Source of the DNA: Paracoccaceae bacterium
Lineage (GTDB): Bacteria > Pseudomonadota > Alphaproteobacteria > Rhodobacterales > Rhodobacteraceae
Assembly: GCA_007131945.1 (NCBI GenBank)
Contig: SLPP01000228.1
Coordinates: 1-11,961, forward strand
Length of the DNA: 11,961 bases
Direction of reading: 5' to 3'
The number at the start of each line of letters is the position of its first letter. Within the stretch, counting starts at the first letter, position 1. The translations under genes were made by a program, and so were the position numbers. Of the stretch, positions 2,704 through 9,974 are shown piece by piece. Below the pieces are notes generated by a model. It was not told the origin of the DNA. It did not search any database and saw nothing but the letters and a program-made list of their open reading frames with translations.

Positions 2704-2806
2704 CGAAGGCCGCCGTACCTGCCGTCAAGACCCCTTCGTTCCGACCGCGGCCGAAGGAACCGGACGGGTTCCGGCGGTTGCGTCGTGGCCTGTGTCAAAG
2801 GTTTCA

Positions 2807-2835
2807 TTGCGGTTAACTGCGCTTCTTTTTATAAC
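2807..2835 (+). promoter_or_regulatory. Promoter-like pair with no plus-strand gene downstream
   Basis: TTGCGG (2807-2812) and TATAAC (2830-2835), 17 bp apart, are among the best -35/-10 pairs in the window. They read rightward into the 3' end of the minus-strand peptidase gene. Either this drives an antisense or small RNA, or it is an AT-rich coincidence. It overlaps the GGTTAA box of the intergenic module at 2811-2872. Confidence 0.35.
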
Positions 2836-2872
2836 ATTTTCATAGGCTTGCCAAAACGTCCGCATGCGGACG
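2811..2872 (+). repeat. Intergenic module copy 1: GGTTAA, GGCTTG, 16-bp palindrome
   Basis: AT-rich island between convergent ilvN and the P1 peptidase gene. In this strand: GGTTAA (2811-2816), 28 nt, GGCTTG (2845-2850), 6 nt, then the perfect 16-bp palindrome CGTCCGCATGCGGACG (2857-2872). The same order with almost the same spacing occurs at 4076-4014 and 8953-8891 on the minus strand. Confidence 0.55.
2853..2872 (-). terminator. Possible terminator of the P1 peptidase gene
   Basis: Read on the minus strand, the palindrome (2872-2857) can fold into a 6-bp stem with a CATG loop and is followed directly by TTTT (2856-2853), 24 nt after the peptidase stop. This is a plausible short intrinsic terminator. 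The same palindrome is also part of the intergenic module. Confidence 0.4.
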
Positions 2873-3900: not shown

Positions 3901-4013
3901 CATGTCCCTCGTTTTGGTACGAGCCTAGCCGGGCGCGCGGACGGTGGGAAGCCGGTCTGGCGGAGAGGCGCAGACCTCGGCAAGGTCTGTCCGGCAGCAC
4001 CCGGCGGCCGAGG

Positions 4014-4076
4014 TGTTCGCATGCGAACATTCGACCAATCAATTGTTTTTACTATGAAACACTTGCGATCTTAACC
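4014..4076 (-). repeat. Intergenic module copy 2: GGTTAA, TGATTG, 16-bp palindrome
   Basis: On the minus strand: GGTTAA (4076-4071), 29 nt, TGATTG (4041-4036), 6 nt, then the perfect palindrome TGTTCGCATGCGAACA (4029-4014). It lies in the AT-rich gap between the glycosyltransferase stop and the start of the P1 peptidase gene, about 110 bp upstream of the latter. It shares the core CGCATGCG and the octamer TTTCATAG with copy 1 and points at the peptidase gene from the other side. It could act as an operator for that gene. Confidence 0.55.
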
Positions 4077-4092
4077 TGATTGAAAGCTTTCC

Positions 4093-5160
4093 TCACGGCG
4101 CTGCATGGCGCGCGGCGACGCGGTCGAGGGCGGCGCCCATCACTGCGGCGGTGTCCGACCAGTCGGGCAGCGCGGCGCCGGCGCGGCTGGCGGCGCAGGC
4201 GCATGCGGCGCGCCCGGCAGGGTCGGTGAGCAGGCGGCGCAGGGCGCCGGCAAAGGCCGAGGCGTCGTCGGGCGGCAACAGCATGCCGGCGGCGGCCGGC
4301 ACGGTTTCGGGCACCGCGCCGGTGGCGCAGGTGACGATCGGGAGGCCGGCAAGCAGCGCCTCGCCGAAGACCATCCCGTAGCCCTCGTACCGGGTGGCGA
4401 GGGCGAAGAGCGTCGCGCGGGCATATAGGTCGTGCAGTTCGGCATCGGGAACACAACCCGCGAAGCGGACGCGGTCGGCGAGGCCCAACCGGTCGCGCTG
4501 CGCGCTCAGCGCCGCCGCGACCGCCGGCTCGTGTACGCGGCCGACGATCTCGGCCCGCCAGTCCAGATCCGCGATCCGTGCCAGCGCATCCAGCAGCACG
4601 TCATGGCCCTTGCGCGCCGCGATCAGCCCGACCGAGAGGATCAGCGGCGGATCGTCGCGCGGCAGGTCGCGGAACACGGGGCGCGTAAAGCCGGGCAGGG
4701 CCACCGAGATGTCCTTTGCCGCGACGCCGAATTCGGCCGCGAGCAGGCGCGCGACATGCGGGCTGGGCACCACGACATGCGCGGCAAGCCGCAGGTTCGA
4801 CGTCTCCCGCGCGATCAGCGCGCGGGCACGGTCGGGGGGCAGCCCGGCTTCCAGCCCCAGCGGATGGTGCAGCATCGCGATCATCGGCGCGCGGATCCGG
4901 GCGAGCCCCTCGGTGTCGATCGCGCCGAAGACCAGCCCGTCGACGATCAGCGGCTCCTCGGTCGGCACCTCGTGCAGCAGGCGCAGCGTCGCGGCCTCGT
5001 CGCCGGGCGGCGGATGCGGAAAGCTCGCGGGTGTCTCGATATGGCGCACACGCCAACCGCGCGCGCGAAGGGCATCGATCAGGTTGCGTTCGTAGATGTA
5101 GCCGCCGGTCTTGGTCAGAAGATCGCCGGGAATCGCGAAGGCGCAGGCTCCGGTCGTCAT
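4093..5160 (-). CDS. Glycosyltransferase family 4 protein
   Basis: 355 aa, GT-B fold, retaining GT4 family, likely cytoplasmic or membrane-associated. The N-terminal domain opens with AFAIPGDLLTKTGGYIYERNL (7-27), the glycine-rich acceptor-side loop, and has MLHHPLGLE (96-104). The C-terminal donor-binding domain shows LSVGLIAARKGHDVLLDAL (175-193) and the EX7E motif with E259 and E267 in RYEGYGMVFGEALLAG (257-272), then TGAVPETV (280-287). Sugar donor and acceptor cannot be told from sequence. The open frame extends upstream to 5415, but that part is Ala/Arg/Pro-rich with no family similarity; ATG 5160 (MTTGACAF) is the sensible start. Its ribosome site is weak. A possible promoter is at 5372-5345. 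It is probably transcribed alone. Confidence 0.88.
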   Translation of the reverse strand: MTTGACAFAIPGDLLTKTGGYIYERNLIDALRARGWRVRHIETPASFPHPPPGDEAATLRLLHEVPTEEPLIVDGLVFGAIDTEGLARIRAPMIAMLHHPLGLEAGLPPDRARALIARETSNLRLAAHVVVPSPHVARLLAAEFGVAAKDISVALPGFTRPVFRDLPRDDPPLILSVGLIAARKGHDVLLDALARIADLDWRAEIVGRVHEPAVAAALSAQRDRLGLADRVRFAGCVPDAELHDLYARATLFALATRYEGYGMVFGEALLAGLPIVTCATGAVPETVPAAAGMLLPPDDASAFAGALRRLLTDPAGRAACACAASRAGAALPDWSDTAAVMGAALDRVAARHAAP

Positions 5161-8864: not shown

Positions 8865-8890
8865 CCCCGCCAACCCGCGCGCGGCGACTT

Positions 8891-8953
8891 TGTGCAAGCT
8901 TGCACATCACGACAAGCAGCTGATGCAAAACAAGAAAATCTTTCCTGTTAACC
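8891..8953 (-). repeat. Intergenic module copy 3: GGTTAA, TGCTTG, 16-bp palindrome
   Basis: On the minus strand: GGTTAA (8953-8948), 29 nt, TGCTTG (8918-8913), 6 nt, then the perfect palindrome TGTGCAAGCTTGCACA (8906-8891). Spacing equals copy 2 exactly. It begins 27 nt after the recQ stop, in an AT-rich stretch. The palindrome could fold as a 6-bp stem with an AGCT loop, but no T-run follows on the recQ strand. Confidence 0.55.
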
Positions 8954-9221
8954 GGATCGCAACCTGTGCGCAGACCGCGGCCGGCGGCGGCGGGCGCACG
9001 CGTCTCGCCGCGCTGCCATACGTTCATTCCGGTCACACGACACGTGGCTGGTGTGGGCGGCTGGATCGATTCTGCCGGACGACGCCCTTGAGCGGGAAAG
9101 CCGGGTCATGGAGGCGGCGGCATCGGCGGGCGAGTACCGACGAGGTTGCGGAATAGCCCGGCGGGCATCGGACGACGCCGGCGCTGCGGGCGCCCCTTCG
9201 CATCCCGGCCGGCAGGGGCGC

Positions 9222-9263: not shown

Positions 9264-9974
9264 TCAGTCGGAAAAGGCGTAGCCGTGCCCGTGGACCGTG
9301 CGGATATAGGGTGCCGCACGGCCGTCCGACGGCGGCAGCTTGCGGCGCAGCCGGCTGACCAGCCCATCGACGGCGCGGTCGTGCATTTCCCACGCGCGCC
9401 CCTTCGCCAGCCGGATCAGCTCGTCCCGGCTCAACGCCTGCCCGCGTCGGTGCAGGAAGGCGGCGAGAAGCTCGAACTCGGCCGAGGTCAGCGCGACCTC
9501 GCTGCCGTCGGGGGCAAGCACGCGTCGGGCGGCAAGGCTGACGCGGTAGCCGTCGAAGGCATGGTCGTCGGGCGGCGGTTCGGCCGCGGCGTTCGGCCGG
9601 CGCACCCGGCGCAGGACCGCATGGATGCGCGCGAGCAGCTCGCGCCGCCGGAAGGGTTTGGTGACGTAGTCGTCGGCGCCAAGTTCCAGCCCGACGACAT
9701 GGTCGGTCTCGTCGCCGCGCCCGGTCAGGATGATGACGCCCGCCGCCGACTTCGCCTTGAGGCGGCGCAGCACCGCCAGTCCATTGCCGTCGGGCAGGCT
9801 CACGTCGATCAGGTAGAGATCGACGCGCCCGTCACCCTGCAGCGCTTCGAATTCCGCCACGGAACCGGCGCGGCGGACGGTGAAGCCCTCGCCCGAGAGC
9901 ATGTTCGACAGAAGGTTACGGACCGCCGGGTCGTCCTCGAGCGCGATGATCGTCCCTGCCAATTCTGCCCCCAT
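9264..9974 (-). CDS. OmpR/PhoB-family response regulator transcription factor
   Basis: 236-aa two-component DNA-binding regulator. Receiver domain (about 7-122): acidic pocket E13-D14-D15 in TIIALEDDPAVR, phospho-acceptor Asp57 in LYLIDVSLPDGNG (53-65), Thr84 in ILTGRGDETD, and Lys106 in DDYVTKPF (101-108). The winged-helix DNA-binding domain is about 138-235, with LTSAEFELLAAFL (162-174), VDGLVSRLRRKL (202-213) and the C-terminal IRTVHGHGYAF (224-234). AGGG (9985-9982) lies 7 nt before ATG 9974. An in-frame TTG at 9962 (MAGTIIALEDDP) is an alternative start. No histidine kinase gene is in the window, so the partner and stimulus are unknown. The DUF454 gene ends 59 bp upstream on the same strand. 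Confidence 0.92.
   Translation of the reverse strand: MGAELAGTIIALEDDPAVRNLLSNMLSGEGFTVRRAGSVAEFEALQGDGRVDLYLIDVSLPDGNGLAVLRRLKAKSAAGVIILTGRGDETDHVVGLELGADDYVTKPFRRRELLARIHAVLRRVRRPNAAAEPPPDDHAFDGYRVSLAARRVLAPDGSEVALTSAEFELLAAFLHRRGQALSRDELIRLAKGRAWEMHDRAVDGLVSRLRRKLPPSDGRAAPYIRTVHGHGYAFSD

Follow-up and report, generated by a model that had tools for sequence, protein, structure and literature searches.

A repeated extragenic element with an IHF-like site and a palindrome at gene ends in some Rhodobacteraceae

Known extragenic palindromes and the element in the window

The RIB/BIME-1 elements of E. coli are extragenic repeated palindromes that contain an IHF-interacting sequence and reside at the 3′ ends of transcription units (described in part of PMC2817692). 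They are the closest known kind to the repeated Rhodobacteraceae element described here, and the relationship is one of analogy rather than of membership. Like RIB/BIME-1, the element has a predicted IHF site inside it, recognized by sequence only (strict core TCAR-N4-YTR in 105 of 161 copies from the source genome's own clade), and like RIB/BIME-1 it is located at the 3′ ends of transcription units, with 91 of the 119 copies placed in all 1.07 Mb lying in convergent gaps, 26 in tandem gaps, and 2 in divergent gaps. In contrast to RIB/BIME-1, in which two opposed REP palindromes flank the IHF site, each element has a single palindrome, which stands at a fixed distance of 6 nt from the IHF-like site, and an extra box on the left. 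Further differences are that the palindrome arms co-vary or are genus-specific, that paired copies are periodically spaced, and that the GTAG tag and, in 12 of 13 carriers, the Y1 transposase are missing. With the REP/RAYT repeats the element shares a high-copy extragenic palindrome (at least 150 copies), but membership of that class fails because of this absence of the Y1 family (PF01797, TnpA-REP transposase) from 12 carriers, the source genome among them, with partial matches in G012 only. For the same reason, mobilization by RAYT is unsupported, and no GTRG-type tag is present at the palindrome foot in the logo of 130 copies.

P1-type parS occurs at few sites on a plasmid, whereas the element occupies at least 150 sites, many of them between converging genes. 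In P1-type plasmid parS, boxes flank an IHF bend on either side (as set out in part of PMC5016525), and the element may be alike in having boxes around an IHF-like bend, its right side being palindromic and its left side containing a half-site in the genomes G159 and G106; here, too, the comparison is one of likeness and not an assignment. The full site of CtrA has the form TTAA-N7-TTAA (as given in part of PMC6180460), which is found exactly in 9 of the 14 element copies of G075. In contrast to CtrA full sites, the element does not lie at promoters, and its first half reads TTTC, TTGA, or TTGC in most genomes examined. Noc-binding and SlmA-type sites resemble the element as palindromes that are scattered over the chromosome; they have a fixed sequence per species and are not known to contain an IHF part or to be tied to converging genes. 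The U-tract of an intrinsic terminator is lacking, as the 8 nt that follow the palindrome contain 2.3 T on average. No relevant literature on Rhodobacteraceae intergenic palindromes or convergent genes was found, and a 2025 survey of REP sequences (PMC12306157) mentions neither "Rhodobacter" nor "Paracoccus".

The window, which is the whole stretch of 11,961 nt that was analysed, holds three copies of the element (Table 1). A preliminary description of this DNA had reported three islands with a common layout, and on rechecking, all of its coordinates and spacings proved correct: the distance from GGTTAA to the palindrome is 46, 47, and 47 nt, and the gap between [GT]G[AC]TTG and the palindrome is 6 nt in each element. 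Its statement that TTAA occurs nowhere else in the window also holds, the only positions being 2813, 4071, and 8948, all within the islands, and the three palindromes are the sole perfect ones of at least 16 bp. The IHF-like site, which combines the A/T-rich spacer with the CTTG block, and the upstream TTTC of the left box are features beyond that description, as are the location between convergent genes and the tail-out orientation of paired copies. The left module of element 1 is a putative response-regulator-type box, judging from its letters. A search of the window with the Rfam 15 covariance models gave four sub-gathering matches and none at gathering score. The genes of the window are ordinary (MeaB GTPase, ilvN, S58 peptidase, glycosyltransferase, accA, YggT, recQ, OmpR-type response regulator, DUF454, and NnrU); the gene for the OmpR-type response regulator (9264-9974) is the convergent neighbour of element 3.

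Table 1. Positions of the three elements and their parts in the window
Feature	Coordinates	Strand	Basis or setting
Element 1, whole	2802..2872	+	Covariance-model match 2789-2878, 81.4 bits
Element 1, setting	ilvN stop 2703; S58-peptidase gene stop 2896		Convergent gap
Element 1, left module TTTC-N7-TTAAC	2802..2817	+	Sequence; 130-copy logo
Element 1, IHF-like site (WATCAANNNNTTR with mismatches)	2838..2850	+	Sequence, logo, and consensus given in part of PMC10380432
Element 1, A/T-rich flank of IHF-like site	2821-2837	+	
Element 1, 16-bp perfect palindrome CGTCCGCATGCGGACG	2857..2872	+	
Element 2, whole	4014..4085	-	Covariance-model match 4008-4098 (minus), 64.9 bits
Element 2, setting	Glycosyltransferase stop 4093 (minus strand) to S58-peptidase start 3903		Tandem gap
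Element 2, left module TTTC-N7-TTAA(G)	4070..4085	-	Sequence
Element 2, IHF-like site	4036..4048	-	Sequence; position from pattern match and logo
Element 2, 16-bp perfect palindrome TGTTCGCATGCGAACA	4014..4029	-	
Element 3, whole	8891..8962	-	Covariance-model match 8885-8975 (minus), 66.2 bits
Element 3, setting	Palindrome end towards recQ stop 8864; other side, response-regulator gene ending 9264		Convergent gap
Element 3, left module TTGC-N7-TTAAC	8947..8962	-	Sequence
Element 3, IHF-like site	8913..8925	-	Sequence, pattern match, and logo
Element 3, 16-bp perfect palindrome TGTGCAAGCTTGCACA	8891..8906	-	

Copy number and distribution

The pattern GGTTAAN{24,32}KGMTTG has 32 matches in the 3.29-Mb source genome, compared with 2 for a reversed-pattern control, an excess in keeping with the repeated family first proposed from the window. 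Family members account for 26 of the 30 matches that were fetched; the other four (L012, L017, L021, and L030) are chance matches without a palindrome at the right place, and L021 overlaps a true copy on the opposite strand. A covariance model built from the 26 members matched all 150 candidates scored (of 643 first-look candidates), giving at least 150 copies in this genome, with E-values of at most 1.8e-9 for 149 of them and 5.5e-6 for one that is cut by a contig end. Two near-identical copies close to contig ends in this genome (L118:5058-5148 and L122:9513-9603) are possibly one locus split by the assembly.

In a first survey of 60 genomes, the source genome included, the same-genus genomes G008 (Rhodobacteraceae MAG CSSed165cm_288) and G012 (Pararhodobacter sp. 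SW119) contained at least 72 copies each, and the remaining 15 same-genus genomes contained 0 or 1 copy each. Scoring of 150 candidates per genome yielded 81 copies in G008 and at least 150 copies in G012, in which all 150 candidates matched. Within the family Rhodobacteraceae, 23 of 394 sampled genomes (source genome included) match the first model at E ≤ 1e-4, and 23 of 394 match a broader model at E ≤ 1e-5, both counts being lower bounds from 11 scored candidates per genome. Diverged versions of the element are spread patchily in the family. A GTDB-wide scan with the exact pattern returned nine stretches, three of which were judged genuine, and a plasmid BLAST search with one copy from G142 returned three unrelated matches.

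On the 3′ side of recQ, the position of element 3 in the window is occupied by the element in G012 and G008 as well, with the palindromes GTCCAAGCTTGGAC in G012, TGTCCAAATTTGGACA in G008, and TGTGCAAGCTTGCACA in the window, and no element was present in the 260 nt read downstream of recQ in 11 other genomes. Downstream of ilvN, the element is found in G012 and was not seen in 16 other genomes. The conservation in close relatives that the preliminary description had looked for is thus borne out among close carriers, in which the same junctions are occupied, but not among non-carriers, which lack the element at the two junctions examined. One relative without the element at the ilvN junction (G003, L136) has a 26-bp perfect palindrome, GTGAAGCGCGTTCGAACGCGCTTCAC, 44 nt after the ilvN stop.

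An extragenic element of high copy number that is patchy by clade, has genus-specific palindromes and inverted pairs, and is nearly absent from divergent gaps could be a REP/BIME- or MITE-like selfish repeat that is tolerated between converging genes, with IHF acting as a host factor of transposition and the pairs representing inverted ends. This explanation is considered unlikely, given the missing Y1 (RAYT) transposase described above and a periodic pair spacing that is not expected of such repeats. Moreover, the blocks are near-invariant while the spacer between them diverges, keeping 3-13 of 16 letters (mean 6.6) at orthologous sites, so that the copies look old yet constrained.

Anatomy of the element and variation of its palindrome

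From left to right, the element consists of a left box, an A/T-rich stretch, a site resembling the IHF consensus, a gap of six bases, and a palindrome of 16 bp. Aligned copies of the source genome read about AAAGSTTTCRTTGYGGTTAAC, A/T-rich stretch, TCAATGGCTTG, six bases, and palindrome, and both these copies and the 130-copy logo have one palindrome per element. The distance from GGTTAA to the palindrome is 46 nt in 82 and 47 nt in 46 of the 130 own-clade copies. By eye, the 47-nt copies appear to have AATCC-type left boxes and a T-rich N6 more often than the 46-nt copies, and two sub-families may exist among the own-clade copies.

The core T-C-A-R-N4-T-T-G is preceded by an A/T-rich stretch in the logo, and its letters are conserved in 80, 98, 96, and 91% (TCAR) and in 91, 97, and 92% (TTG) of the 130 own-clade copies; the conventional form of the IHF consensus is WATCAAnnnnTTR (as stated in part of PMC10380432). 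The strict core is also present in 13 of 14 copies in G159, 10 of 20 in G106, 5 of 12 in G426, and 1 of 4 in G142. The IHF-like motif is reversed within about the same stretch in all 14 copies of G075, and it is reversed in 18 of 24 copies of G284 (read by eye; an automatic tally gave 21, with three misfiled), which fits a bend site and not a directional signal. IHF alpha is encoded in all 23 genomes tested, carriers and non-carriers alike. The reversed-motif copies of G284 (e.g., L280, L286, and L292) often share about GCGCGCCACATCGAAA upstream of the left box, and two sub-forms of the element with an identical palindrome occur in this one genome.

Of 161 own-clade copies, 140 have TTTC in the left box, 11 bp ahead of the TTAA-like half. 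In G426 and G029, the first half often reads TTGA or TTGC, and G106 is without a left box at the usual place. The TTAA-likeness of the upstream half peaks at a spacer of 6 in the own clade (2.4-2.6, compared with 2.0-2.2 of 4 at a spacer of 7) and likewise in G142, and a peak at 7 is seen only in G075, G426, G159, and some small sets. The left box appears CtrA-like only in some genera. Base pairing between a left CATTG and a right CAATG, considered by eye on A1, was discarded as inconsistent between copies.

The 161 own-clade copies had been pre-filtered to contain at least 5 of 8 complementary pairs, and the palindrome counts were therefore redone on 140 own-clade copies picked without regard to the palindrome. 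In this set, 126 copies have 7 or 8 of the 8 pairs. The most variable pair of arm positions (4/13) is complementary in 130 of the 140 copies, compared with 41 in shuffles; pairs 3/14, 6/11, and 7/10 are complementary in 132, 131, and 136 copies, compared with 67, 79, and 70 in shuffles, and the central two bases are symmetric in 117 copies. Co-variation of the arms is also seen in the 26 initial copies and in the 161 filtered copies. At orthologous junctions of filtered copies (18 comparisons at 12 element sites, with both flanks aligned in only 3), 93 of 144 pair positions are unchanged, 39 carry two-sided compensated changes, 7 are changed on one side, and 5 otherwise, and in an unfiltered set of 10 comparisons with 80 positions, the corresponding numbers are 43, 26, 4, and 7. 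The co-varying arms, the own-genome family, and the orthologous comparisons support the earlier proposal that the family is kept by constraint and does not consist of simple repeat copies. Template switching in a hairpin is one possible origin of the symmetric change of the palindrome. A division of the palindromes into discrete paralog classes is not favoured because arm class and centre combine widely in a set of 140 symmetric copies.

The excess of compensated over one-sided changes, in the filtered and the palindrome-blind comparisons alike, and the median distance of 38-40 nt between palindrome and stop codon in convergent gaps would suit a 3′-UTR RNA element or a factor-assisted terminator, in which the palindrome forms a hairpin in the facing mRNA and a DNA-bound complex, in place of a U-tract, pauses the polymerase. 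Such an arrangement appears improbable: the palindrome is not followed by a U-tract, its central two bases are usually symmetric, which is needless for an RNA loop, and it is constant, centre included, within several other genomes, in two of which the half-site recurs upstream. Structured RNAs were among the candidates of the preliminary description, and a purely RNA element is further disfavoured by the periodic pair spacing and the reversible IHF-like site.

In most other genera examined, the palindrome is near-constant within a genome and different between genomes, a constancy found among copies retrieved with a palindrome-containing model; the G284 copies and half of those from G106 were retrieved with the palindrome itself. 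It reads CGTCCGAGCTCGGACG in 14 of 14 copies of G075, TGTGCACATGTGCACA in 14 of 14 copies of G159, and GTCCAC-NN-GTGGAC in 20 of 20 copies of G106 (10 of these fetched via the exact palindrome), and its core is TTTCACGCGTGAAA in 12 of 12 copies of G426; G418 departs from this, each of its four copies (L192, L205, L215, and L221) having a different palindrome. The sequence GTCCACATGTGGAC was found at 24 sites in G284 and at 10 in G106, and a search of six other genomes gave no match. The half-site of the palindrome is repeated in the left part of the element in 14 of 14 copies of G159 and 10 of 20 copies of G106, and this was not noticed elsewhere. The palindrome sequence matters in some genera; in the own clade, it is mainly self-complementarity and a few bases that matter.

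Sites for chromosome organization, of the partition or occlusion type, would place a ParB/Noc-like dimer on boxes flanking an IHF bend at 150 or more positions, and P1-type parS offers a precedent in its two kinds of repeat placed asymmetrically around an IHF site (part of PMC5016525). The 16-bp spacerless palindromes agree with this explanation, as do the half-sites that G159 and G106 have to the left of the bend, and genus-specific palindromes would fit a drifting specificity. It is nevertheless judged quite improbable, as the varying palindromes of the own clade would call for a loss of specificity there, the concentration in convergent gaps is not required by such a role, and the palindromes are not known to match standard chromosomal parS.

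Location, proposed function, and paired copies

Among 130 copies examined, 119 lie in gaps, 10 at stretch ends, and 1 overlaps the end of a predicted gene; the own-genome contigs had been chosen for carrying copies, and a further contig set largely so. Two 200-kb runs of G012, located on contigs with matches and with copies not individually chosen, contain 31 placed copies, of which 28 are convergent (p = 6e-15; convergent gaps represent 23.6% of intergenic bases). Among gaps of at least 90 nt in these runs, a copy is present in 25 of 41 convergent gaps, a figure that is partly circular because a copy lengthens its own gap; only 3 of the 75 tandem gaps and none of the 53 divergent ones carry a copy. 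Where a convergent gap holds a single copy, its palindrome side is the one closer to a stop codon (median 40 vs. 84 nt; 47 of 67 cases, p = 4e-5). The convergent bias is weaker in other genera, with 41 convergent, 48 tandem, and 8 divergent copies among 97.

Palindromes accompanied by a response-regulator-like box recall the operators of an ordinary transcription regulator, which had also been an early candidate. This explanation is highly improbable because only 2 of the 119 placed copies lie in divergent gaps; the divergent gaps of the two G012 runs are all empty, and the recurring neighbours are unrelated genes. The preliminary interpretation is thus upheld as to a constrained family, but not as to operators or a purely RNA element.

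The favoured reading, which is given about an even chance, is that IHF folds the elements into nucleoprotein sites at gene ends, which probably serve as insulators or as roadblocks to transcription. IHF would bind the central site and bend the DNA sharply, bringing the left response-regulator box, perhaps that of CtrA, beside the right palindrome, which would be bound by a putative factor X. The complex would form at the 3′ ends of genes, mostly in convergent gaps and usually with the palindrome as the part nearest the stop codon, and insulation seems its most likely role, by blocking the read-through of RNA polymerase and/or fixing the topology where transcription units collide. The proteins and the function in this scheme are proposed ones, and CtrA is the least secure of the three proteins. 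The freedom of the palindrome to vary in the own clade counts against a single sequence-specific dimer, and the patchy distribution is odd for a core function. A crude scan for hairpins followed by T-runs placed terminators at 6-19% in intergenic sets and elements, with no useful contrast. A common neighbour gene as a pointer to factor X was sought and discarded, as only scattered and unrelated genes recur.

How converging genes control mutual read-through in bacteria is poorly understood where U-tract terminators are scarce, and the occupation of 25 of 41 longer convergent gaps by an element with an apparent IHF core and periodic partners makes the question directly testable. The element would also provide a counterpart of RIB that does not belong to the REP/RAYT lineage, and its genus-dependent palindrome dialects could lead to a new DNA-binding factor.

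Neighbouring copies within 400 bp are tail-out in 17 of 17 pairs, and in 23 of 23 distinct pairs with later finds, each neighbouring gene being faced by one copy. The distances between the left boxes of a pair cluster near 33, 45, 56, 67, 79, 90, 101, 113, and 124 bp, with six distances taken from model coordinates and one (98) having a weak anchor. The best period of this spacing is 11.35-11.4 bp (R 0.86-0.87), and none of 5000 uniform or jittered sets was as periodic in a test that scanned the observed spacing finer than the nulls. With the off-phase pair included and an orthologous duplicate removed (n = 22), the period is 11.2-11.3 bp (R 0.78-0.81), and 0 of 20,000 sets were as periodic when both were scanned alike. 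The sole exception is the pair at 1295 of L183 in G008, whose left boxes are 164 bp apart and thereby off-phase. Looping work places the helical repeat in living cells at about 11.3 bp, and a pair spacing so close to it argues for proteins on double-stranded DNA, in line with the nucleoprotein reading and not with an RNA element.

In gaps where each of the converging genes has a copy to itself, the complexes of the pair would lie on the same helix face, probably touching. A more specific version of the nucleoprotein reading, offered tentatively and regarded as rather doubtful, is that a CtrA-type regulator, IHF, and a fast-evolving palindrome-binding factor form a dedicated system that marks most longer convergent junctions in some Rhodobacteraceae, the paired complexes locking on one helix face. 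If true, it would amount to a bacterial device that insulates genes transcribed head-on, with a possible link to the cell cycle via CtrA and with genus-specific palindrome dialects. Whatever its cause, the pair spacing documents a helical repeat near 11.3 bp on the chromosome. The L183 pair is the orthologue of a tail-out pair with a spacing of 66/67 bp in G012 and G000, and it offers a natural test of the phasing.
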